This document shows, in pieces, positions 41,105-58,000 of a stretch of 64,000 bases of DNA. The DNA lies in NCBI GenBank assembly GCA_014925825.1, contig JACGCK010000167.1:1-64000 (forward strand). The letters run 5' to 3'. A program made the translations under genes and the position numbers. Position 1 is the stretch's first letter. The number at the start of each line of letters is the position of its first letter. The notes under the pieces are model-generated. The model saw only the letters and a program-made list of their open reading frames with translations, had not been told where the DNA came from and searched no databases. Source of the stretch: Pholiota molesta. Lineage: Eukaryota > Basidiomycota > Agaricomycetes > Agaricales > Strophariaceae.

Positions 41105-42108
41105 TCACGGCCCGGGATTAGCGCCCGTGTTTCGCGCGAACAGTAGCGCCTGGATCAAGACGGGATTTTTGCGTATGTAAATTTGGAAGCTGTTGCTCGC
41201 CCAACGGCCCATGGCCTGTATGATGGAAGGAGCGGCGCCATTCTCAGCGAGAGATGTGGCACCTCCGGCGCGCATGGAGTGGCCCGACACATCCTGGTCG
41301 AAAAGGCGCCGGAGCCTGTTGATGAAGAAGGAGCGGGTAGGGACTTCGCCGGCTTGGGTGAGCCACAAGGGGGAAGCGAGAGGAAAGGCGGCGTCGCGGG
41401 CGTGCAGGTAGTCAAGGAAATGCGCTAGGGGATTATGACGGACTTGGAAGGCACGGATAACGATGCGATTTCCTTCGAAGAAAGGGTCCGCTTTGTGGGC
41501 AGGCAACAAGAAGGAGTAGTAGTCGACGGAGACGCGAACCGACGAGCGTCGGGAAACCTTGCGCCAGTTCCGGAGGGATCGGTCATCAGGAAAGGCCATC
41601 TCTCCCAAACGCAGGAGGCCGAAGAAGCCCGTGAGGAGCATGGCGATGAATAGTTTGTCGTCGAGATGGGGGAAGAGCCATAATGGCGAAGTGCCTTCTC
41701 GAGGTCATCAAGGGTAAGCGCGCGCTTACGCATTGGAGGGGTGTTGCGGAGGCGCATGCAGCCCTGTAGTGAGCGAGAGACAAGCTCCGACCTGCGGTTC
41801 GCGCGGACGTCCGGGAAGTAGGGTTCGAGCTGTTGACAGATGCCGGACAGGTATGAGTCGACGGAATCAGGTTGGATGTGGTGGCACATCCAGACCGTGT
41901 AGAGGGAAAGGGTGTCTTTGGTGGGTTCCAAAGGCATGTTGTGGAGGCGAATGAACTCAAGGTAAGAGTTGAGGGCAGAACCATAAGATTTCCACGTCGA
42001 GGTGTCGATGGCGTGGCCGAGGGCGATAGCGCGCTCGCGCACTAAGCGCTCGTGGGTCCAGACTTCCCGCACGGGTTGCCTGGACCGGACGGAAGACCTG
42101 ATGCTCAT
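41105..42108 (-). CDS. retrotransposon tyrosine recombinase, frame broken by one missing base
   Basis: Integrase of the DIRS/Ngaro type that joins the circular cDNA to the target. An N-terminal SAM-like half (TWKSYGSALNSYLEFIRLH, LTLDDLEKALRHYG) ends in one frame. The catalytic half continues in the next: LFIAMLLTGFFGLLRLGEMA (first Arg), GHSMRAGG (HxxR), GRWASNSFQIYIR (Trp and the nucleophile Tyr). The break lies at a run of five G on the plus strand (41668-41672); a sixth base g restores SSPHLDDKLF. Its ATG overlaps the RT stop codon in ATGA, which suggests coupled reinitiation. It would be active only if the break is a sequence error. Confidence 0.85.
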
Positions 42109-45100
42109 TTTCGTGCTGCCCCCAGCGCCAATGGAGGGGGTTGAAAGTCGAGGAGTTGCAGACCGGGAACCAAGTCAATGGCCTTGCCAAAGGCCTGGCG
42201 AGAAATGGCGTCGGCCACCTCATTTTCTTCTCCGGGGACGTGGAGTACGCGAAGGTCGTGATCGCCCTGAACGAGGATGTCGACGACGAAACGGAGGAGG
42301 CGGTTGTAGGCAGGCTGACAGTGTAGGGAGTTGAATATATTGACCGTGTTCATGTTGTCGGTGTAGACGACAATGCGAGAGCCGTTCGGGGAGGAAAGGT
42401 GAGCGCGGTGAACGGCAGAAGTGACGCTGAGGGCTTCAAAGAAAAAGATGAGGTCGACTGGGACGTTCATGGGAACTGGAGAATAGTACCCGACTCGGTG
42501 GTCAGGGAACCAAAAACCTAAGCCATCAAGACATGCGTCGCAATAAATGGTGACGTCGGCGAGCGAGGGGTCCCAGGAAGTGGATTTCAGCAAACGAACA
42601 CCGGAAGAATGTTCGATAAGGTCGGCTGCCCAGTTGAAGTCCTCGCGGACGGCGTTGTTCACCCAGATACGCTCCCGCGGAGCTAGCTTCCCGGCAATTT
42701 TGGGGTAGACATTGTTAAGCGCGGGTCGAAGGAGCGGGTACACGTTAAGCGCCCAGTTTACCCAACCGGCGAGTACCTGCCACTTCTTCAGTTTGAATGC
42801 GCCGTTGGAGCGTCCTGTCGGCTTGGAACCCCAGAAACGAAGCTCTTCCAGCAGGGAGAGGCGAGAGTCGGCGGGAAGTGTAAGCGTCATGTTGTTGGGG
42901 TCGACGTCAATCCCTATGATCGTGAGCGGCGACCCGAAAACCTGTTTCTTCTCCACATGGGGGATACCGAGCTCGTCCCAGACCTCCAAGAGTGCTACCT
43001 GCTTGGATGGCATGAGCTTGCGGTAAGGGGCATAGTAAGATAGCTGGTCGGCGAACTCGGCGCCCGACGAGTCGTCGACGTAGGTAAAGATACCCAATAT
43101 GCTCTTGACGTATTTGACAATCCACGCCACGAGAGCATTGACGGACACAAAGTTCCTGTTTGACGCGGAATTGCCGAAGCAGTTGCGGCGGTCTATGTGA
43201 CCCTCGCCGTCGACGAAGACTGCCTGTTTGAGCTGCCAGATAGGGTGCATAGGGATGAGTCGATATGCCTCAGCGATGTCGGACTTGAACATGACCAGCG
43301 GGCGGCTGTCGTACGTGCGCCTGAGTTCGAGGAGATGTTCCCCGATATGCCGCATGTTATCGAGAGGGCAGCCACGGATCCGCTCGGTATCGACCATGCT
43401 ATTCAGAGAGAAACGCCCGGCACTATGGTCGGTGACCAAACGGAAATCGGAGGAGTGAGGCTTCGGCACTGCGTGGATGGGCATGCAATACATGCCAGGG
43501 AGGAGAGTCGGTCCGAAGGAGGGCGAGAAACGCCCTTTCGCGATCTCGATGTCGCGTTGGGCACGCAAAAAGGCAGCCTTCGCTTCGTCTGTGGGAGGGC
43601 CCCGGTCTTCAGAGTGAGTGGTGGGGTACTCGCCGATGTGGGTGTCAGCCCATGGCCAGAAACCCTCGCGCAGACCGCGGCACACCGACTGAACGAAAGG
43701 CTGGTTGGGGTGGGAAGCAAGCAGGCGTTCGAAGACGTCGACATTGATGGGTGTGGTGACGGAAAAAAGGTGTGGGTTTTCTGAAATTGTCTTCTGGGCG
43801 ATTGGGTTGTTGAGTTCGTGGGGAGGGACGGGAGGTAGGGGTTCTGCGGTCTCCGTCCACTCAGCAGTGGAAGGGAGGGACGAAGAGTGTTCGTCCGTCC
43901 ATACGTTGTATCGGAGGTACCGCGGGATGGCGCCAAAGGCGAGTTTACTGCCTCCCACGCCTGTCGCACTTCTCGCTGGAGTGGTCGGTCGAGCGACAGA
44001 TGCGGCAGGCGTGTTGGAATCTGCAGTCGGTCGAGTTGCATCCGGCAGCGGAATTGAAACGGTGGCAGACGGTGGGCTTGTTATTTTTAGAAGAGCCTCC
44101 GGACTGACCCCGCGTTCCTGATCGACCTTTGGCTTCGACCCCGTCAGCCGCGACGATAGCGGCGTAGAGGTGGTGGAAGCGTGATGACGCGTCGAAGAGG
44201 ACGCTCCGTTGTCCGCCAGCGACTTCATTTCGGACGGCGATGTCGAACATGATGATGCGCGGGTGGGTGGCGACGATTTTTGCTGCGAAGAGGCTCTCGA
44301 TGTAGTCTCCGTAGCTCCGGAGTTCCTGTTCGCGGTGTCTGAAAACGAACCTCGTGGCTTGGACGACCCGATTCCACGCCGAGATCCAGTCACCGGCAGT
44401 TTCGATCCGTTTCTTCGGTTCAGCCAACCCGAAGGTGATCTGAGTATCTCCCACGCGGCCGACATTCTCCTTAGCAGGCTCAGTTCGGTGGAGATTACTG
44501 AAGACCGCGTTGAGGTCGACGGCTTCCCCGCGGATGATGCGCTCCCACTGGGATGTGGGGAAGCCGGAAGGGGCGTGGGCTGAGTTCCTGATCCAGAACT
44601 TGACTTGAGGGATGTCGCGGGCGAACAAGGCAAGGAGTTCTCGATTCTTTCGACAGATAGGGTTATCGGACTCTCTGTTCTCGAGTTCGTCCTTGTACCA
44701 AGGCATGTCGGATAATGCGAGTCGTGGGCGCTTGGAGGATCTATCTCCATCGTCGTCGTCTCCAGGATCGGCGGCGACTGATTTGGCAGAGAGCTCACTG
44801 AGGAGGTCATTGACTCGGCGATCGACATCGGGATCACGCTGGGGTTCGAGGAGTTCTCCCGCGACCTGTCGTTCTTCGCCAAGCTGTTCTCCATATGGGG
44901 CGCCTCGCCTAGCCGACTCAGTAAGGGCCGTTTCGTGGGAGTTGATGGCCGAAAGGTAGAGTTCAAGCGTCTGCTCTTGGGCACGGTCGCTTGAGTCTGG
45001 GTCGTATTCGATCGTTCGAAGGACGAGCGCGATCGCTTTCGGCTTGTTGAGTTGGCCCGAACGGAAGCGGTCAACGATTCCGTCGAGTTCTTCGATGCGT

Positions 45101-45329
45101 CGTTGATGCTCAACCTGTCCAGCAGGGGGATGCTCGGTGGCCGCAGTCGGCGGAGCAGGCTCGGCACCGTATCCTCCGACTGGCTCGCTTCTCGAGCTTC
45201 TTTGATTGATGGGTCCTGCAGGCGATCCAGCAACCGAGGCGGCTTGATTACCTCGGGTACCGGTTCCTGAAGTCGTTCTAGAAGACCGGGGGGTTCTGAC
45301 GGGATGTTCGACGACTTCGAAGGAATCAT
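42105..45329 (-). CDS. retrotransposon reverse transcriptase-RNase H polyprotein (upper part overlaps gag)
   Basis: RT core: PIHAVPKPHSSDFRLVTDHS, SDIAEAYRLIPMHP, and the catalytic YVDD in IFTYVDDSSGAEF. RNase H: IYCDACLDGLGFW, an acidic FFEALSV, VVYTDNMNTV, HVPGEENEVADAISR. The frame is open from inside A1 (an in-frame ATG at 45524 lies in the repeat); I list the first internal ATG, 45329. The part upstream of about 43950 overlaps gag in another frame. Its first 75 codons hold repeated LLxRL motifs (LLERLQEP, LLDRLQDP, LLRRLRPP, LLDRLS); the rest of the overlap is Ser-rich and looks like a shadow of gag. The true RT start is therefore uncertain. Confidence 0.85.
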   Translation of the reverse strand: MIPSKSSNIPSEPPGLLERLQEPVPEVIKPPRLLDRLQDPSIKEAREASQSEDTVPSLLRRLRPPSIPLLDRLSINDASKNSTESLTASVRANSTSRKRSRSSFERSNTTQTQATVPKSRRLNSTFRPSTPTKRPLLSRLGEAPHMENSLAKNDRSRENSSNPSVIPMSIAESMTSSVSSLPNQSPPILETTTMEIDPPSAHDSHYPTCLGTRTNSRTESPITLSVERIENSLPCSPATSLKSSSGSGTQPTPLPASPHPSGSASSAGKPSTSTRSSVISTELSLLRRMSAAWEILRSPSGWLNRRNGSKLPVTGSRRGIGSSKPRGSFSDTANRNSGATETTSRASSQQKSSPPTRASSCSTSPSEMKSLADNGASSSTRHHASTTSTPLSSRLTGSKPKVDQERGVSPEALLKITSPPSATVSIPLPDATRPTADSNTPAASVARPTTPARSATGVGGSKLAFGAIPRYLRYNVWTDEHSSSLPSTAEWTETAEPLPPVPPHELNNPIAQKTISENPHLFSVTTPINVDVFERLLASHPNQPFVQSVCRGLREGFWPWADTHIGEYPTTHSEDRGPPTDEAKAAFLRAQRDIEIAKGRFSPSFGPTLLPGMYCMPIHAVPKPHSSDFRLVTDHSAGRFSLNSMVDTERIRGCPLDNMRHIGEHLLELRRTYDSRPLVMFKSDIAEAYRLIPMHPIWQLKQAVFVDGEGHIDRRNCFGNSASNRNFVSVNALVAWIVKYVKSILGIFTYVDDSSGAEFADQLSYYAPYRKLMPSKQVALLEVWDELGIPHVEKKQVFGSPLTIIGIDVDPNNMTLTLPADSRLSLLEELRFWGSKPTGRSNGAFKLKKWQVLAGWVNWALNVYPLLRPALNNVYPKIAGKLAPRERIWVNNAVREDFNWAADLIEHSSGVRLLKSTSWDPSLADVTIYCDACLDGLGFWFPDHRVGYYSPVPMNVPVDLIFFFEALSVTSAVHRAHLSSPNGSRIVVYTDNMNTVNIFNSLHCQPAYNRLLRFVVDILVQGDHDLRVLHVPGEENEVADAISRQAFGKAIDLVPGLQLLDFQPPPLALGAARK

Positions 45330-45336
45330 CAGGCAT
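43945..45336 (-). CDS. retrotransposon gag-like protein with C-terminal zinc-finger cluster
   Basis: 463 aa. A helical middle (RRIEELDGIVDRFRSGQLNK; ALVLRTIEYDPDSSDRAQEQ) is followed by a conserved-looking core (PWYKDELENRES, FWIRNSAHAPSGFPTSQWER, DWISAWNRVVQATRFVF). The end has a CCCH-plus-CxxC cluster (CHRFNSAAGCNSTDC, HACRICRSTDHSSEKC), usual for gag of basidiomycete YR elements. The first 75 residues in this frame are low-complexity; the other frame there has the LLxRL repeats, so the real N-terminus may come from that frame. Confidence 0.8.
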   Translation of the reverse strand: MPDDSFEVVEHPVRTPRSSRTTSGTGTRGNQAASVAGSPAGPINQRSSRSEPVGGYGAEPAPPTAATEHPPAGQVEHQRRIEELDGIVDRFRSGQLNKPKAIALVLRTIEYDPDSSDRAQEQTLELYLSAINSHETALTESARRGAPYGEQLGEERQVAGELLEPQRDPDVDRRVNDLLSELSAKSVAADPGDDDDGDRSSKRPRLALSDMPWYKDELENRESDNPICRKNRELLALFARDIPQVKFWIRNSAHAPSGFPTSQWERIIRGEAVDLNAVFSNLHRTEPAKENVGRVGDTQITFGLAEPKKRIETAGDWISAWNRVVQATRFVFRHREQELRSYGDYIESLFAAKIVATHPRIIMFDIAVRNEVAGGQRSVLFDASSRFHHLYAAIVAADGVEAKGRSGTRGQSGGSSKNNKPTVCHRFNSAAGCNSTDCRFQHACRICRSTDHSSEKCDRRGRQ

Positions 45337-45370
45337 AATATATTGTGAGGAACGATGACGAAGTGAATAG

Positions 45371-45617
45371 TAGCGAAGAAATACGGCCTCTGGAACTGAG
45401 ACTGACGATGAGAAGAGAGAGTCAAGGGGCCTGTGACCTTTGGGAAATTTTGTAGGCCAGGCGGGTTATCGATAATCCCGGCGCACGGTTCAGCTCTTGG
45501 GCAGAACGGCCGTGAGTACGCCATGGCTCACAGGCACGTGACGATAAGGACAGTCTCCGCGTACCAGAGGCCTCAGCCGTTCTCATTGGACTTGGGTAAG
45601 TCAAGACTTAAGCTCGA
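45371..45617 (-). repeat. split direct repeat A1 (5' end of the retrotransposon)
   Basis: 247 bp identical by eye to A2. On the minus strand it supplies an in-frame ATG (MAYSRPFCPRAEP) continuous with the pol frame; whether it is used is unknown. Confidence 0.92.
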
Positions 45618-48556
45618 TATAATACCGACGTATTGGCAACCTCTCAGCCTTCCCCAGAAGTTATTCCCTTATGTATGCTTCCGCCGAGTACTCTCTCCGT
45701 GCGCGAGTTTCTTGATGTTCGTTGACGTCTTCATAGAAGCACTTTCTGCCCGCCCAGATTAACCTCTGCCGCACAATAACCGCTCTGTTCCGAGTCTTGC
45801 GTGCGTGCCGGTGTTCCCCAGAAAACGCACAACGTACACCGTCAAAGCTTGCGCCTGCGGCCTGATGGGTGGGACTGATTACGGTTATTCTTCCTGATTT
45901 CTCTGCACTTACCTCATCTTGTATACAAAATAGATATCGGATGCTACGGAATGTGTGAGGAATGGCGTAAACACAGTGAGCTGGGAGTCAGGATGTCATC
46001 TTGAAGCCTTCATATTCCCTACTAACAACCATGCGAGATGTCGTATCGGACATATTCTAACATCACTCACACAGTCAAAGGCTTCATATACGACTACATG
46101 AAATATACGCACGATGGCCTCCGTAAGGCCTCCGTCAAAGAACCTCAGCGCACATGGATAGTATAAGTATCTCGTCCTTCATTAATTTCTTTAGCTCTGA
46201 ATTCCATCCGTTCCTGATCGCTCAAGATGGTTTAATAAACTGTAATTCATCACGAAGCGAAGGGTTATTCGCGCCACCTTATCGAGGACAATCCATCCAT
46301 GACGACCAACAGCGGGTAAGTCTCACGTATGACAACCCGGATTGAATCTGCATTGCGCCTCATTGCGCGCGCCGCGTACCGCTGCCAGCCAAGGTCGGCC
46401 AGAGCCAGAGCCAAGCCCGCACCGCGCACGGTGGCAGGGCGGCGGGTTTGTGGCACTGGCTGGATATCGAAGATTTGCGGAGGACGATGGCTATTGGATG
46501 AGCCACTAAATTTTGCTTTGCTGAAGGCTCTGAATAAGAGCCGGGAATGGAAGGTTGGAACGTGAACGCAGGTGAACAGAGGTGAACGTGCGTGATTTTT
46601 GGACCTACATGCACGCGCGCGTGATTTGAAATTGCGCCACGCGATGTGGCGTCCCGCGTGCCGGGACTCCAGACATAAAATAAGCGCCTATCTGGATTCT
46701 GTGCACTGTAAGGATCTTTAGAAATATGCTCCAAATATTCGGCACCGGGTACCCCACAAATTACAATCAAGACAAAACCGAAAGACGACGCCACACGGCC
46801 TGTTTGGCATTTCTGAGCAAGAATATTTTGGACAAAGTTGGCATGTCGTATGTACTATGTAGAAGATTTGTTCTTTCTGATTCCTAGGCTACGTGCGCAG
46901 GAACAATCTGTATCAAAGATATGAACAGAGGACGGGTTTGATGGGAAGCTTAATTACGTAATAGTGGCTGTGCCTCAGCGCCCGGTGCGCGTCCGTGCGT
47001 GTTCGCGCATCTACGCCAAATCTGCACGTCTTTCCAACGTCGCATCCTCCGAGTCCAGTCTATCTGCTGTGTAGGCCAATATTTGAGCTATATACTATAA
47101 TGCCTCAGTTTGAGCTGATAGTTGATAACTATAACATTGTTAAGTACAGTTACTTACAACTTGAACTTACAAGCCTGAGTGAGTTGTGATTAAGACACTT
47201 CAAAGTAAAAATACTGTTATCTTTTTGAGAGGATGGATAAATTAGAAATGAGTAGCCTATAGAGTGGGCCAGGGCGAAGCTCTGGCCGAAAAAGCTCTCA
47301 GAAGTTACAATGGGAATATTTGAAGTGGTTAAATTAGTAAATTAGTAGCAAAGAATTGCATATTTCGAGCACTTCAGTATTTTTTTCCGGAATAATGGGC
47401 CAGGGTGTAGCTCTGGCCCACATGTTTTTAAGAACATAGAATCAGGCAAAGCAATAAAAAAGAACTAAGTATCAATATGCCTTTAACACTTTGCTTCTTT
47501 TCTATTTACTTTTGGGCCTTGGCCAACTTTTGAAGTACAAACTAAGCTACAGCGCTGAAAATATAATTCTTATGAGCTCTTAAATTGTTTTAGTATTTAC
47601 TCTGCTCAGTTTGGCTCAATTCCATTCTTTTTGTGCCTGCTCCAACTGTGAAATCATAGAGGCGATTTCAAGCAAATTCTATTTTTTAAGGGCTATGTAC
47701 GGAGGCGCAAGGCGCCGACTCAAAAGGGGGTCCAGGGGCGCAGCCCCGGCAAGCTGTTGCCCAAAGCGAAGCAGGAGAAGAGCGCGAAGCACGAGCCTCC
47801 GACGCGTAGCGGCGGGCATAAAGCTGAGGTATCGTTCGATTGGTATTTCTCGCTTACCTCGCTTATGCTCGCGTAGTGATCCTGCCCTTTCCCATCAGGA
47901 TATACATGATTAGATAGAGTACATATGATTAGATAGTGGACCACAGACCGTTTTCCGGCCATCCATGGATATTACCGCCCGTCTCAGCCCGTCTCCGGTA
48001 AGCTTATGGTAGATCCTCTTGGCCGCTAAGCCATTGACCAACGGCGCTAGTTTGCAGCCGAATACCAAAAAGGACTTCCAGCGCGCACGCACCTACTCAT
48101 CGCCATACGCTGCTGAAGCGCTGAAGCCTGACCTGCCCAACGGCCACGCCAACGGAAACGCCCGGACGAGCACGACGAGCTCGCAGTCCAGCACGAACCC
48201 CGCCCGCGCGCTCTCCCCGCGCCCCGCCGACGCCAAGCCCACGCGAATACCGAAGGCGACGCGGGCGCCGGCATCCCAGCCGTCCAGCGCCGCCCCCTCG
48301 CCGCACCTCAACGGGGCCAGTCACAGCCCTGGCGCCGAGCTTTCAGGGTGTGGGCACCTCTACAGATTCCATATGGCTACTATGTTTAAACTCAGAATAT
48401 TGACTGCTGGGGCCACCTTCAGACAGGCCCGCCGGTCTCTCGGGGGAGATAACGGCCACGGCGGGATGAGCGATGAAGAATTTATTTTTATACTCATCAC
48501 GGGACAGTGGTGATTGCCGAATATCCTTAAGGGGGAATCGAGAAATACCAATCGAA
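45618..48556. other. gene-poor stretch between the two mobile elements
   Basis: AT-rich intergenic sequence with two short hairpins (47267-47287, 47397-47419), a GC-rich repeat-like tract (about 47700-47820: GGGGTCCAGGGGCGCAGCCCC), and an open plus frame at 48019-48360 (PLTNGASLQPNTKKDFQRAR, then Ser/Pro/Ala-rich). That frame may be an exon relic, but I recognise no family. The minus frame at 46360-46794 has no motif. Confidence 0.4.
47267..47419. repeat. pair of GGCCAG...CTGGCC hairpins
   Basis: 47267-47287 (GGCCAG, loop, CTGGCC) and 47397-47419 (GGGCCAG, loop, CTGGCCC) share the core CCAGGGYGWAGCTCTGGCC. Each can fold on itself. They sit in AT-rich DNA without a gene. Confidence 0.5.
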
Positions 48557-48565
48557 CCCGTACTC
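48557..48565. repeat. 9-bp target-site duplication, left
   Basis: CCCGTACTC directly before the left inverted repeat, matching 54792-54800 exactly. Confidence 0.85.
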
Positions 48566-48731
48566 CAGGCTCCTAAAACCAGCCTCTCGTATCGAGAGTT
48601 TCATCCGAGGGAGAGTAGTTGTACATATTTAATTCAGACGATTGTTGCCATCAGAATACAAACAAACAAACTTAAAGCTCTGAACTCTCGATAGAGAGGC
48701 TGGCACAATTGGTATGGCCGAGACGCCCGAG
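48566..48731 (+). repeat. left terminal inverted repeat
   Basis: Pairs with 54625-54791. The outer and inner arms match closely; the middle is more diverged. It contains CCAGCCTCTCGTATCGAGAG near the tip and the opposed CTCTCGATAGAGAGGCTGG further in, so each end could also fold on itself. It ends in ATGGCCGAGACGCCCGAG, a start codon context shared by both ends. Confidence 0.88.
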
Positions 48732-48865
48732 AACTGTGACCAGCGTTATTGTCACGATCATGTGCGGTCATGTGTTCCAACGCGTTACTTGGCCAATGTC
48801 ACTCTGTTTTTTATTGGCTGAGCTACATTGGGTTTACAACACGAGTACTCCAGATTGTCGGTCTC

Positions 48866-51730
48866 ATGGATTCTATACCGCTCGAAGAATCAAATCCCTC
48901 TCCTCCCTCCTCTCCTCCTCCTCCTCGTGTATGGACCATCCAAGAAATACGGAACCTTGTTCAGCGCGTATTCAAGAAACGACCGTGTTGGTTCCAGATC
49001 AAGGTGGCTCTTGCATTGCATGCAGGTAAAGACGTCATAGCCTGTGCGCCAACTGGAGCTGGAAAAACATTATCATTTTGGATCCCACTGCTTATGGCAC
49101 TTGAAGAAGGAAAAGACAAACTCACCATCGTTGTAACGCCACTCAATTTGCTAGGAAAGCAAAATGTAGAGTCGCTGAAGGAGGCTGGATTGTCAGCTAT
49201 TTCAGTCAGCAGCGAAAATAACAACTCACAGACATTTAACGTGAGTCATTCATTCACTGTCTTCAAAAGCAGCCAAGTCAGTACATTTTAATAGGCAATA
49301 GAAAATGGGAAATACCGCGTCATAACAATCAACCCAGAGATCCTCATGAACAACACCCATACAGACAATTTGTGGAAGAAACCTATCTTTACGCAACGAA
49401 TTCTGAACATCATCTTTGATGAAGGACACTGTATAAGTCAGTGGGGCTCCTTTCGGAACGAATATCGCAACATCGGTGCACTGCGATATCTCCTCCCAAA
49501 CTCGGTATCATTCTATGTACCATCTGCAACACTTCCATCCAGCGTCCTTCTTGATATCACCAACGTCCTACGACTGAAGCCCAACAATACCGAGCACATT
49601 ATTTGCTCGAATGATCGTCCAGATATCAGCCTGGTTGTACGGGGTCTGACATTCCCTGCAAATAGCTTCAGGGACTTAGCATTCCTTATTCCCGAGGGTT
49701 TCCGCGAGGGCGACTCACCTCCTGATAAATTTTTGATCTTCTTCGATAATAGGATCGAGGCCGAAAATGCATGCATCTATCTTGCTTCGAGGTTACCAAT
49801 TACCTTGAGATCGAAAATAAAATGGTTTCACTCACTGAATACCGGAGAATATCGTGTGGAGGAATTGGAGCGGATGAAGAATGATCAGATCTGGGGGTTT
49901 TGCTGCACTGATTCATTCGGAATGGTGGGTACATCTTCAGTCATCTACATGATCTCTCTGATGATCCATGCAGGGAATGGATCTTCCGGGAATAAAACTC
50001 ATCATCCAATGGAAAGCCACATGTAGCCTTTGCACACTCTGGCAACGGTTTGGTCGCGCTGCACGTGGGGCAGGTCAGACAGCAATAGGTGTTCTATTTG
50101 TCGAGAAGAAAGACACAGACGAAGTGCGTACGCTCAAGGCTACAAGAGAAGCAGATCGTCAGCAGAAGAAAGATGGTGTAGGAACGAAACGGAAGGCGAC
50201 CGACCAGCTGAACAAGGATGCCGGAGCAAAGCGGCCAGCTCTTGACGGCAGCTTGACTGTTAATCGGGTTGCTGGAGGAGTTGGTGTTCCTGAAACCAGG
50301 CCAGATCTCGAAGGCAGCAGCGCGATCGTTGACCATGCCGCTGAAGGAGGTGGTGTTCGTGCAGGCGGCATATCGGCGTCCATCTTGCTGCAAATGAACG
50401 AGCGGCGGGCGCATTACGCGAAGCGCGAACCCATCGCACGCTCCGTGGTGCAGGCATCGACAGTCAGTGGCAAGGGGAAAGGCGTTGAAGTCGGAAGTGC
50501 GATGGACGACTTCATCAACACGCCGTGTGAGTTCAAGTGTCGTCGCATCGTGCCCAAGCTGTATTTTGGGAACGATAAGACACGTGAGTACCGCGCTCGT
50601 CCATCCATCAGAATATTCTCATCGATCATCACAAACTTACAACACGTTCCTTCTCCAGCCACCAACTACCATCTTCTCTGCGACCCCGAGTTCAGTACCG
50701 GGTGCAGTCGTTGCAAACCTCGAGCCCTAACTCTTTGCTGCGATCTCTGCCAACCGGACGCATTTGCCATGTTCGACCCAACCAATACGGACAAGGCTGC
50801 TCGTGCACCTTCCAAATCGCACGTCAAGGCGGCTGAACCGACGGAAAATAGTCAGAAGCTCCAAGCCGCATTATTCGATTGGCGAGAGCAAAACGCACGA
50901 ATCAAGTTCGACGCCGAGATCCTTCAAGACATGGGATCTTTCATCTTCCTCTCAAATCAACTCATCTCAAGAATTATCGATTGCGCTCGCGCTGACAAGA
51001 TAGGGACGGTTGCCCTGCTATTCAAGGAGACCGCTTGGAGGAAAGAGTGGGTTGAGGAATTCGGAGAGTCGCTTCTCGCCGTCGCGCACTCATTCTATCC
51101 TGCAAAGCCGATCTCTGACCCAGCTGCAGCGTCAACTCGCCGAAAACCTCGCGCGCCTTCGAAGTGCAGTGCATGTGGAGAGATCGGTCATAACAGTATG
51201 TAAATCTTTCTATCTTCCTGTAAGCTCTATTCTAACTTTCATTAGGTTCTAAACGTACTTGCCCGAAGAGGATCGAAGCACGATTGCAAGGATTTGTAGA
51301 CAGCCTACTCCCTCTTGACAAAGAAAATGCCCCTCCTTCACGTCTGCAACCGCCGACTACCCCCTCTCGTCGATCGCATCGGCCGCTTTCTGTCTTGACG
51401 CCGCTTGCGGAGAGCTCGAGATCGGCTCATCCCGTGGCCCCGCCGATGTATCAGAACCCGTATCTTTCAACAAATCAACCAATATCCATTTCCACGCGGC
51501 TTTCCTACTCGACACCACTTGCAGGGAGCTCGTACTCAACGCCGCTCGCAAGGAGCTCGGCTCTTCCTATTTCCATGCCGCTTTCCTACTCGACGCCGCT
51601 CGCAGGAAGCTCGGTTCATCGCACCCCGCAGATATATCAACATCTTCTCCCTGTTCAACCCAACTCATTCTTACCACCCTATCTACCGCCATATCCACCA
51701 TATCCACCATACCCTCGGCCACCTCGCTAA
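48866..51730 (+). CDS. RecQ-like superfamily 2 DNA helicase with C-terminal zinc knuckle
   Basis: Exons 48866-49240, 49295-49924, 49974-50583, 50659-51195, 51246-51730 are in frame and give 878 aa. Motifs: Walker A CAPTGAGKTLSFW (about residue 60), DEGHCISQWG (motif II of RecQ type, Asp-Glu-Gly-His), SATLPSSV (motif III), FGMGMDLPGIKLIIQW and QRFGRAARG (motifs V and VI). A cysteine cluster (CSRCKPRALTLCCDLCQPD) and a CSACGEIGHNS...C knuckle follow, then a Pro/Tyr/Ser-rich tail with repeated SYSTPLAGSS. The start is the ATG at 48866; an upstream ATG in the inverted repeat (48709) may belong to a 5' exon. Likely role: unwinding element ends or replication during transposition (inference). Confidence 0.85.
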
Positions 51731-54429
51731 ACATCCAGGCTTCCATCGTCAACAACCTCCTCTATCCCACCGTCATTAAATTCATCTGATATGTCCATGT
51801 TGCTTTCGCCGCTTTGCTCGACCGTCACCATATGCGCTCCAATTTCCATCGCGTCTGGGACACTAAATGCCGACTTCCTTCCTTTTGCCTTGCTGTTCGA
51901 AGAATGCTTTACCATGTAGGCTGCCAAGTTTTCAAAGGTCATCTTCATTTTGGGTGGGGAATGGCGCGTCGTTTTGTGTTCCAAGCAGAACATTTTCTCA
52001 AACTGTAGCCGGACATTTTTGTAGACTTCAATTAATGGGGATTCGCTGATGATTCGTTGCTTCTGATGGTTTGAGAACTTTCCTGCGTAGATGCGCTGGT
52101 AGATTATCAGCTTTCTCATCTCAACTGTTTGCGAATGCACTGATCTACCTTTGTATACAGATTGTTATGCTCCACCACCCAGTCAATTGCACGGAAATGC
52201 CCCTTCTTTCCTGTGGGATTGCACAGGATATTCATACGTATGGCTCGCTTCAAGCCGGCGGGATATATAAAGTGTATGTTTTCCAAAGATCTTCTCATTT
52301 CGGTCGCATACTTATGTTTTCCACAGCCGAGAAATATGAAGATCCATGGAACGAACAGATCTTCAACTCGGCCAATGTCCCCATGATTCATCGCATGTGA
52401 CATCTCTTCGTACAAGAGAAAATATTTGCCTTGCAGGACGGTATTTTCGTATTGCTGATCCCTTTCTTTATCAGTATTTTGAGTGCGCTGATGATTGACA
52501 TATTTGCCAGCTTCTGAGTCCTTTTTAACAATGTCGTAAGACATTTGTACAATTGTTTCCCATGTCGGCTTCGACTTCCCCAAATCTTCAAGTGTTTTGT
52601 GCGCATGATTTCGCCTTTCCGCTTCGATTCTCCACAAGTCAAGACGAGTAACAATCCCCACATGCTGGACTACCTCGTGCATTCGGCGGAAACCTGGCTT
52701 TGTGAGTATCCTTCCTGTTTCTTTTGGACGAATCTGACCAATGTGGCTCATTAGGCTTGTTTCATCGACATCGCTCTTCTTATGATTAATGAAGATCCTC
52801 CAGAGTGCGTCTACGCAGGCCATCTTGAGATGGAAGAGGCCCATTACAAAGACTCCAAATTGCATGCGTCGCCATGGTGTTGCTTCAGATGATCGTGATT
52901 CGAGCACGCTTCGAATGTGCTGCCCAGTAAGTAGATCTCCAAATAACAAGACCACGGAATTCCCCACTGATTGAATATCCTCACCACTGTCTAGTGGGTC
53001 GCCGATTTTTGTCTGCTGAAAGAATGATTTCAATGCTTCAACATTCCCAGCTGGTGTGCTAGGACTAACGTCAACGGCCCGTAGTGGTGTTTGGGATGTC
53101 TTCAAGATTGGTATCTCATCTATAGCTTCGGGATCACCCAAGTCTTTCAGGAAGGTACGGAAGTACTCAGGCCCAAATTGCACAAGATCTGATCGGTATT
53201 TCCAGGCATTGAATCGTTCACGGCGGGTGAGACCTGTTGGATGTGGTGGCGGCTTGGGATGGATATTAAGCAGGTCATAAAATGAGATATTTGGTACGTC
53301 TTCGGGCTTGATATTAGGATTCCGATAAAATCTTTGCCATAGAAAGTCAGAACAGTCTAGATCTGCCTGAGTTATGCCATGATATAGTGGAAGCATCGTT
53401 CCCGAGGTAATGTGGATCAGAGTATCTTGCGGTTTCTCGACAGTCGGAACTGAGTGTTTCAAATCTATATCCAGGTTATCGAAAGCATATGAAACCAACA
53501 GGCCCTGGCCTAAACGCTGCATGCCAACATATGCCTCTTTGGAAAGGTTTGTTACTGCCAAGTTGACCGTGCTGGATGCAATCGATAAACCTATGCGTGC
53601 GAGTAGATCCGTGATTGTTTCGGGTGCATTGCAAGAGTGAAGAAAAATGCCCATCACACTTTGAAGGGTATTACAGTATCGGTTGGTGCTCTGCATCATA
53701 ATGCTAATGCAAATCACCCTTTTCTGTATAAAAATGACATTCAGTGATTTATCTTGAGGTCCACTTTGCACGTACAATTGTGATTAGGACACTTTCTTGC
53801 TGATTTAATTGGTCAGGTAAGTCTTCTGGTTCATCGTCATCCTCAGCCACTAGATTCACGTCTACTTGTTCAAATGCAGGCTCATCGATGAATTCTTGTG
53901 AATGCAAATCACCCATATCAATATCGCCATCCCCTAGATCTTTGCCTTGCTGTGCCGCATTTCCCTTTGTCATTTTGGTCACTCGATGGAGCGCACGAGC
54001 TTGACGGCGGTGGTTGTTTACGACATCTGCTGAGAGAAGAATACCAAAGAGTTTCCATACATCCGGAGCTAGGTCTTGCATCCGGGAGGCCAGCTCTTCA
54101 ATATCAAATGTGGTGAGTGCTTCTTCTGTCATTGTCGTGGCCGAAAACCAAAAACCGCTCTCCTTCTGTGCGAGACGCAACATCTGTGGCTGATATTTTT
54201 CTTGTATAGTGATTTTGTCTGCCCATTCAACGACAACATCATGTATTCCCTCGGCTTCCTGGAATGCATGGAGGATGTTTGTGGCAGCCTTTTTGATGGA
54301 AACCGTTGTAGGATGGTCTTTGTATGCAGGATCTGTTAAAATCGTGATAAGCAAGTCTTCGAGCTTTAATGTGTTGTCTTCTAGGACTCGGAGAACTACT
54401 GGAATGGCACTGTGGTGGGGAGATATCAT
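51727..54429 (-). CDS. DUF6589 protein, candidate transposase of the TIR element
   Basis: Three exons (53776-54429, 52149-53723, 51727-52095) give 865 aa. Family-like blocks: FWFSATTMTEEALTTFD, YAFDNLDIDLKHSVPTVEK, SVVLLFGDLLTGQHI, FHLKMACVDALWRIFI, KYFLLYEEMSHAMNHGDIGR, NPTGKKGHFRAIDWVVEHNN, and SESPLIEVYKNV...TTRHSPPKM. I recall DUF6589 as a basidiomycete domain of unknown function. Acidic residues at the ends of predicted strands (D300 in AFDNLD, D481 in LLFGD) and a helix Glu (E693 in YATEMRR) could form a DDE triad; this is inference. An upstream exon from the inverted repeat (MAETPEAVTIDQVVYH, near 54642) is possible. The stop codon overlaps that of the helicase. Confidence 0.82.
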
Positions 54430-54624
54430 AGATGGTTTGGGTAACTAAAAACATGCATGTTTTGCGATGTACATTATATTCGAAACAACCAAGCGCGCTT
54501 GCCTGGCACCCTTTCCATGGCACTCAAGGGACAATGGGAGTTGCTTGATTACAAATATGTGACGATTTGTGACCCTTAAGCACATGACACTCACATGATA
54601 GACCACCTGATCTATTGTGACAGC

Positions 54625-54791
54625 CTCGGGCGTCTCGGCCATACCAATTGTGCCAGCCTCTCTATCGAGAGTTCAGAGCTTTAAGTTTATTTGTTTGGTT
54701 TTTGATTTAACACAGCCACTTTTCTCATATGGTACAACTACCTCTCCCTCGGATGAAACTCTCGATACGAGAGGCTGGTTTTAGGAGCCTG
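54625..54791 (-). repeat. right terminal inverted repeat
   Basis: Complement of 48566-48731 with small gaps. Same nested motif pair as the left end. On the minus strand it also ends in ATGGCCGAGACGCCCGAG. Confidence 0.88.
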
Positions 54792-54800
54792 CCCGTACTC
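54792..54800. repeat. 9-bp target-site duplication, right
   Basis: CCCGTACTC directly after the right inverted repeat, identical to 48557-48565. Confidence 0.85.
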
Positions 54801-55096
54801 CATAAAGCTTGTTCAGTTCGACAAGACCACTAGTGCGCGATCAATCGATCAATTAATTCAGTATTAAATTAATAATGCCTTCCCTGAGCGCGCTTAAGCG
54901 CGGCGCGCGTCGTGCGGCATACTAGTCACGTTTCGTGAGCGTCACATGTTACGTCCTTTCATTCCAACTGTAGCCTAACCTTGGACTTGAACTTGGCCTA
55001 GTACCTACTACTAAGAAGCCTCAACATCTGAAGTTTGAACTTACTGGCCCGAGCTTAGCTTGAACATCTGGAATTTCAACTCAGGAAACGTCATAT

Positions 55097-58000
55097 ATGG
55101 CCACAGAAGCACTCAGATCGCAAGTGGCTGCAAAATGGCAAGAATCGTTTCAACGTCTGAATGCCGACGCGCCTGGAATCTCTGGACTAATGAGCTTCAG
55201 TGAGGCAAGTAAATTACACAGCTCATTGCAGCAGAAAACTAACTAAAGAACAGGCTTGGGCCATCTCTCTGAACTATTTGCATCCGATAGATATCAACAC
55301 GGTGGCACTGAGCACGGACGGGAAGCCATACGGTGAAGCATATCACTTTTGAGCGACGTCTACCGGGTACTCATACATTTCTTCGCCGAAGATAGGAAAG
55401 GATATAGAGCTCGCGCGACCAGCGTTCTCCCTGGTCAGCCAATGTCGAAAGATGCCCGCACTGCTCGAAAGCTTTCTCGGTGAGCTAACCGAGGTCTGAT
55501 TCAACAGTGTACTGACAGTCTCGTGCTAGAGGATATGCGAAAGCAGTTTTATCTCGTTGAAAGGGAGATTAACCAATATATGAGCTCGTATGAGGTGCGT
55601 CGGTCGCCATCCTTTCCCGTTCTGGATTCTGATGTACACCAGGTGGAAAACTCTCCCGAAACTGTGCAAGGTCTCGTCACACGTCTGATGTTATGGTACA
55701 AGGCTTGGGCACCACCATCCGAGTGAGTTGAATGTGCCATCCGAGGAGTATTTCTGACAAACAACAGTTTCGGACCCACCCTCTTCGCATCGTACACCCT
55801 CAACTTCCACACCCACCTCTTCTCCTCACTTCCGCCTTCCTTCGCCGTCGGCTTCAAAGCCCTATGTTCCTCGCTCCTCGGCACGCCAGACGGGACGCAG
55901 AGGTACAACCCCGTGAACCACATCGAGATCTGGAAGCAGTTCGAGCTGCTCGGCCTCATCGAGCGGTACGAGAGCGCCATCGCGAGCGTGGCGTACGAGC
56001 GGATCGAGGAGCACGTCCTGGCGACGTGCACGGGCGAGTGGGGCCGGCCGATGCTGGAGGAGCTGCGGGTGTGGATGACGGACAACGTCGTGCCGTGGAT
56101 GGTGCACGTCTACGCGCGGGGCGCGTCGACAAGTACGTGTGTTCTGTGCCGCATTCTTCTCCTCAAATTGTGCTGACATTTGGATCAGCCGAGGAGGCCA
56201 AAGGGATGCTGCAAGGGGCCGGTTCGCGATTCGACTTCCACATCAACAAGACGCTTTGTGATTTACGCACGCGCGAGATTTTTGACATCATCATCGATTT
56301 TCCTGATTCCATGGGCGCACTGCAAGACCTCCGAGAATGCCTGCAACGCGTCGACCAGCGTGCAAATCTCGTCCAGGCTCTGCGCAAAGCGTATGTCTGT
56401 CCCATCTCTTCGTTCCTCTGAAATTAACTGATTTGCCTCAGTAATGCCAAGCGTCTCCTGCATCCAGGTGCAGACACGAGACTGATTCTACAGCAATACG
56501 TCGCCACGATCAAGTGTCTTCGTATCGTCGATCCACCAGGAGTGTTACTTTTCAAGGTTGCCGATCCCATCCGACGATACTTACGGTAGGCTTTCCTCGA
56601 GCTCCAAGACTTGCGATATGCATCTGAAACGTCATAGGGAGCGACCTGATACGATTCGAAGTATCGTTGCCAATCTTGTAGGCGACGATGACACGGGCGA
56701 TGCGCTGGTTGATGAGAACGAGCCCGTCGTACCGTTGCAACAGCCCGAACTGGAGGACTACGGGGACCCGAATTGGGAACCGGAGCCGATTGACGCTGGC
56801 CCTGGTGCGTAGTCTATGTCTTTGTTCGCACCCCACTGGTGCCTCGCCATTGATGTCTTCTTCGTCTTAACGCTATTCTTGGATTACTTGACAATGCTTA
56901 TTCATTTTAGAATTCCGGACCAACAAACCGAGCGACGTCATTAGCACGTTAGTGAGTATCTACGACTCGAAAGACCTCTTCGTCAAGGAACTGCAGGTGT
57001 TGCTTGCCCAGCGGCTCCTGGCGATGACGGAAAGTGGTGATCGGGTTGAACGAGAGGTAAGTCTCCATAGATCTTACGCCTTTCATTTTCATGGGTGCAC
57101 GACCGCTGATATTGGACTACGACAGAGGCGGAATATCGAGATCTTGAAAATCCGGTTCGGCGAAGCCGCGCTGCAAGTTTGCGAAGTGATGTTGAAAGAT
57201 ATGACCGATTCGAAACGGATCGACGGACATGTGCAATCGCAGCGAGAATCCGTTGTGCATCCGACGATCATCTCGCGCCATTTCTGGCCGGCGCTGGAGT
57301 CGAGCGACATGGTCATGCCTGGGCAGTTTCAGCAGTACGTTTTGAATTCAGTTTACCAGATATCAACCCTGACATTCTTTCTTTTTGTGTTTAGACTACA
57401 AGAGCAATACGCGCGCGAATTCAATGTGTTCAAACCGGACAAGAAGCTCAAATGGTTACCACATCTCGGGACTGTGCATCTCAATATCGAGCTTGAGGAT
57501 CGAACATTGGATATTGAGGTCCCCCGTTGGAAGCGGCTTTTATTGAGCTATTTTCGCAGAAAAGTTTGTCCTCCTCACCCCAACGCTATCCCTTTATCGA
57601 TCGAGACTGATCATTCTATGCATATAGATGTATGGACTTTAGATGAGCTCATTGCTGGCGTTGGCTCGGTCACCCGAAGCGCCGCGATTAGAGCCCTCTC
57701 TACATGGGTAGACCGTGGCGTGCTGAAGGAAGATCCAGAAAACACGTTCATCTTGCTAGAGAGGGAGGAAGCGGGTGGTGTCGCAGCGCGAGAGAACAGA
57801 CCGGGTCCGTATAATGCTTCTCTATATTGCTATTCATGGCACTCAATGCATGTACAACAGTTCATATAGCCGAGGAAGCTCCTGCATTGATCAACCCACA
57901 AGACCAACAGGCAGAGCAAATGCGGATGTACTGGAAGGTGTGTAGCGCTCGTTATCGTGCTTTGATCGTCGCTCATTATATATTTTTCCTTTCAGTTCAT

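Follow-up and report, generated by a model that had tools for sequence, protein, structure and literature searches.

The stretch of DNA analysed here (the window) comprises the first 64,000 nucleotides of contig JACGCK010000167.1 of the agaricomycete Pholiota molesta, and it contains a 6,226 bp element at positions 48566-54791 with one copy of CCCGTACTC on each side. Both copies of this 9-bp target site duplication (48557-48565 on the left, 54792-54800 on the right) can be read directly, as can the terminal inverted repeats (TIRs), which measure 166 bp on the left (48566-48731, plus strand; tip CAGGCTCCTAAAACC) and 167 bp on the right (54625-54791, minus strand). The two arms are complementary at 50 of 50 tip bases, have diverged in the middle and are 95% complementary over the inner 82 nt; the left arm has CCAGCCTCTCGTATCGAGAGTT as its outer motif, which recurs further inside in inverted form, ending 138 bp in. 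The gene content is two genes placed tail to tail, a helicase on the plus strand and a protein with the domain DUF6589 on the minus strand. A first-pass annotation had described a two-gene TIR transposon of this layout, with both genes open throughout, and direct reading confirms it, i.e., reading through the two genes requires introns only, with no stop or frameshift to cross. An Rfam search of window positions 48000-55500 gave no match.

The helicase gene (48866-51730, plus strand) is modelled here with five exons (48866-49240, 49295-49924, 49974-50583, 50659-51195 and 51246-51730) encoding 878 amino acids of a RecQ-like superfamily 2 helicase. The product has the motifs APTGAGKT and DEGHCISQWG and a cysteine/histidine knuckle on the C-terminal side, while the public model of the protein (P0121, 719 amino acids) carries the domains DEAD and Helicase_C. 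In a PDB sequence search its nearest solved relatives were RecQ, RecQ5, RecQ1 and WRN, and the RecQ family model TIGR00614 matched it at an E-value of 3e-41, which lies under the curated cut-off. The DUF6589 gene (51727-54429, minus strand) has three exons in our model (54429-53776, 53723-52149 and 52095-51727) and encodes 865 amino acids that match PF20231 at an E-value of 2e-87. Exon 1 and the frame that follows it correspond exactly to the public protein P0001 (753 amino acids); P0001 is without the third exon (51727-52095), where the Pfam domain has its C-terminal end. Both public proteins, P0001 and P0121, are entered under P. molesta. Compared with the copy on contig C456 (copies are named here by their contigs), the ratio of non-synonymous to synonymous change (dN/dS) ranged from 0.05 to 0.14 across three exons of the helicase gene and from 0.06 to 0.13 across two of the DUF6589 gene, with dS saturated. 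Both proteins appear from their sequences to be under constraint.

Used as a query, the window element gave 65 matches in its own genome, and a family search yielded 61 DUF6589 matches that were grouped into 36 loci. Ends were sought at 18 of these loci and found at 15 (C76, C456, C108, C104, C46, C603, two on C257, C180, C25, C119, C11, two on C334, and C147), leaving C40, C113 and C55 not resolved. Many gene pairs without TIRs or duplications, which would have spoken against the first-pass description, were accordingly not what we found: all 15 loci with ends have tips and duplications, the latter exactly 9 bp at 14 of them (short tips only support the one at C11) and 8 bp at C456. Thirteen further places with TIR matches and no gene pair were fetched, of which seven have both tips, every one with 9 bp; the other six (C400, C591, C99, C378, C529 and C240) show a convincing tip at just one of their two sides and were excluded from the duplication count, a second match on C400, three mismatches away, not being the right end. 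Over the whole set 21 of 22 copies therefore have exactly 9 bp, which bears out the expectation that such duplications would recur. They have no fixed common sequence and show a mild bias, with G or C at base 1 and A or T at base 7, each in 17 of 21.

Four types of tip were distinguished, CAGGCTCC, TAGTCTCGG, TAGRCTCG and TAGTCT, with the consensus YAGNCT. The CAGGCTCC tip is found on complete helicase/DUF6589 elements (C456, C108 and C104) as well as on shorter copies that have no gene pair (C349, C444, C190, C53, C136, C217 and C365). One of the shorter copies, the 4.15-kb C349 (L012 349-4500), has open frames of 275 and 326 amino acids which resemble a nested DDE transposon of pogo-like type. 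At C25, C257, C180, C119, C11 and C334/C147 the tips alone are clearly common to both ends, whereas the window element has TIRs of 166/167 bp.

The borders and duplication in the window are not a product of chance, because copies with similar tips carry duplications of their own and because of a flank-swap control. In eight other copies with tips that differ from the window tip at no more than one of 15 bases, a different sequence is duplicated exactly over 9 bp, and in a ninth the duplication is 8 bp long. An 8-10 bp match at YAGNCT was seen in 12 of 15 true pairs, compared with 2 of 210 combinations when flanks were swapped among the 15 loci, the motif having been derived from the same 15 loci and the C104 stretch being without its left end; both swapped matches joined a C334 left flank to the C257b right flank. 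An earlier version of this control gave a score of 60 for 4 of 210 combinations, all of them C334a or C334b against C147. Chance was ruled out for these, as C334 and C147 bear oppositely oriented copies of one element that are 98.7-99.9% identical.

This kind of element is recently mobile. Over 5,743 bp C334a is 99.95% identical to C334b, and C147 has 98.7% identity with C334a; the alignments of these copies break off precisely at the borders of the element, and their duplications are different. The flanks of 20 elements were joined with a single copy of the duplication and searched against the same assembly, and a match across the join was obtained for 13, seven of which carry the gene pair. 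Identity was 100% for C365 (160 of 160 bases), 99% for C190 and C180, 97% for C119, 96% for C349, 93% for C104 (in two places) and C456, 90% for C334b, 88% for C25, 85% for C136 and 84% for C46, and the matches for C444 and C217 are located in repeats. For C456, C334b and C136 match and query differ in length by some 10 bases or more, which leaves the number of duplicated bases unsettled at those sites. The scoring took in 40 of 163 candidates, and the seven elements with no empty counterpart may be misses.

The first-pass annotation had the helicase travelling with DUF6589, and this holds across the genome, with a relative of the window helicase no more than 6 kb away at 31 of the 36 DUF6589 loci. 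Every one of these 31 helicases is encoded on the strand opposite to DUF6589 (23 convergent, 8 divergent and none on the same strand), and conversely all 31 helicase matches from the window-helicase search adjoin a DUF6589. C39 and C90 have helicase fragments only, and a general RecQ model finds further RecQ genes (e.g., C24 and C447) on contigs with no listed DUF6589. Contigs C334, C257 and C400 each have two closely similar DUF6589-helicase loci approximately 5-30 kb apart, and these twins may reflect local hopping or local duplication.

The window DUF6589 protein has 530 homologues at an E-value of 0.001 or better in one search, and relatives are present in Agaricomycetes other than P. molesta. 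For the comparison with other fungi we took the best 120 DUF6589 relatives and the best 120 helicase relatives; the former included 51 named NCBI proteins, four from P. molesta and the other 47 on 46 contigs as judged by stated length. At least 18 of those 46 contigs also bear a helicase relative (matched by eye), co-occurrence on one long contig not in itself being proof of neighbouring genes, and at least eight pairs have adjacent or next-but-one locus tags, e.g., QCA50_014705/014706 and PC9H_011710/011708. A 351-amino-acid query from the deep DUF6589 lineage of C119 gave 153 matches; among the best 120, taken with a length filter, every named organism is an agaricomycete fungus and the remaining rows are unnamed or metagenome proteins, a selection that says nothing against animal relatives of DUF6589.

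Very probably, DUF6589 is a DDE transposase built on an RNase H-like core, because its predicted structure resembles such folds and a D-D-E set of residues is conserved. The fold search with the predicted model matched the P-element, Hermes and other DDE transposases, the ISCth4 transposase among them, with the P element and Hermes as the closest solved folds, in keeping with the first-pass suggestions that DUF6589 is the likely transposase and that it be compared with RNase H-fold transposases. The predicted core is RNase H-like with a helical insertion ahead of the last acidic residue, as in the P element and Hermes (hAT), and D300, D481 and E658 (P0001 numbering), which are conserved, are the candidate catalytic triad. 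By sequence, a PDB search with the DUF6589 profile returned nothing meaningful (best E-value 0.51), the P element and Hermes included. A viral structure library likewise gave no match to the model at an E-value of 0.001 or better, its top row being a hAT-like protein of Pandoravirus japonicus at 0.1. P element and hAT duplications are 8 bp, unlike the 9 bp that prevails here (8 bp at C456 excepted), and those elements are not known to have a helicase gene, which the present ones do.

The ends of the elements have a further shared organisation. Of 24 ends tested in 12 elements, 19 have a motif of 16-32 bp, beginning at base 12-14, that is repeated as an inverted copy ending 67-145 bp in, at a score reached by none of 300 shuffles; five ends fail this score (C180 right, C257a right, C119 left and both of C334a). 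The motif varies in sequence among families, while outer and inner copies agree within a family, e.g., TATCGAGAG in C76, TATCGCGAG in C108, TATCATG in C104 and CTCTGAAGGG in C46. The inner motif can be one G short of the outer one, with CTCGTATC outside and CTCTATC inside (C76, C456 right, C108, C444, C217 and C365), or in the C104 version GTCGTATC and GTCTATC; the same is seen in several element families. Several binding motifs per end are known for the P element and Hermes. Paired transposase-binding sites would be expected to have the layout seen here, and the motifs are putatively such sites. The name DUF6589 was not found in our literature search, and as far as such searches reach, both the assignment of DUF6589 as the DDE transposase of an element and the paired end motif appear to be new; the founding paper of AcademH, the lineage considered below, may describe such features under other names.

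We regard the window element, with good confidence, as an autonomous cut-and-paste DNA transposon of AcademH type with DUF6589 as its transposase. The DUF6589 protein would bind the paired inverted motifs within each TIR, cut at the CAG/TAG tips and so move the element by cut and paste rather than by copying; the ends would then be joined to the target at positions staggered by 9 bp, and repair by the host would convert this stagger into the 9-bp duplication. The opposite-strand RecQ-like helicase would be an accessory factor, probably unwinding DNA at the ends or in gap repair. AcademH elements have TIRs, and AcademH is reportedly a lineage of the Academ superfamily from Kojima in 2020 (Mob DNA 11:15), so that this kind of element had probably been named already in that year. 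In the excerpts of the literature available, AcademH is a helicase-encoding Academ lineage (PMC10045372, PMC10799480), with duplications of 9 or 10 bp as opposed to the 3 or 4 of AcademX, a difference tied to helicase and nuclease (PMC10045372); it is known as low-copy elements of Basidiomycota, Ascomycota and Mucoromycota, and the domains listed for AcademH, KolobokH or Helitron include DEAD and Helicase_C (PMC10799480). The window element is like it in the helicase beside the transposase, the 9-bp duplication, the TIRs, the basidiomycete host and the low copy number, and no difference was found from AcademH as those excerpts describe it; the features behind this filing are the helicase, the length of the duplication and the range of hosts. 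The first-pass view that no named superfamily fits is consequently not supported by these descriptions. The evidence is more limited for the window copy itself: empty sites were found for related insertions, but none for this copy in the assembly, its right flank being unique save for one partial repeat match (C609) and its left flank being a repeat. With no whole empty site found, the insertion in the window is supported by its borders and by its relatives.

Mutator-like elements (MULEs) typically have long TIRs and 9-bp duplications, and both these traits and the ISCth4 fold match would suit a MULE with a captured helicase. However, a Pfam scan of P0001 at E-values up to 1 shows DUF6589 alone and no MULE transposase domain, and the helicase pairing recurs across four tip types and so does not reflect a single late capture; such an origin is hardly credible. 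Kolobok duplications are TTAA, not 9 bp of varied sequence as here, and it is similarly improbable that this is a KolobokH element, a fungal TIR transposon encoding a RecQ helicase. KolobokH is likewise a fungal DNA transposon with such a helicase, and is known from fungi only in the part of PMC9587614 available, but its helicase is placed downstream of the transposase domain, whereas here it is the separate opposite-strand gene described above. A somewhat less remote, though still unlikely, alternative is that DUF6589-RecQ elements form a superfamily of their own, as yet unnamed, of helicase-associated TIR transposons, combining a DDE transposase nearer to P element/hAT than to Academ, an independently acquired RecQ helicase on the opposite strand that acts directly in excision or repair, and recognition of the paired inverted motif of each end. 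The closest solved folds point in this direction; we know of no solved structure for Academ transposases, so the fold search could not have shown them. DUF6589 is also not mentioned in the literature searched, and KolobokH shows that other fungal transposons have a RecQ helicase (PMC9587614, as excerpted). Nevertheless, AcademH as published in the excerpts cited accommodates the helicase, the 9-bp duplications, the TIRs and the basidiomycete host alike.

An AcademH-type transposon with a DUF6589 transposase would give a likely function and fold to a domain that is still filed as one of unknown function, with those 530 homologues in a single search, and annotators could then mask DUF6589 genes as transposons. 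Furthermore, one species holds complete recent copies, matching gene-less copies and empty sites, which makes the role of a RecQ helicase in a transposon directly testable.

The left flank of the window element (48380-48565) is the end of another, older repeat, of which the genome has 14 more copies; the last bases of the repeat are also those of the left duplication. All 14 cease matching at the duplication or no more than 4 bases past it, and the insertion of the element apparently took place at the margin of this repeat. Further to the left, on the minus strand at 42105-45527, there is an open frame of 1,140 amino acids with no Pfam match at E-values up to 0.01. The gene to the right of the element can be taken as APC2, because its sequence matches TPR_ANAPC2 and, below threshold, cullin.
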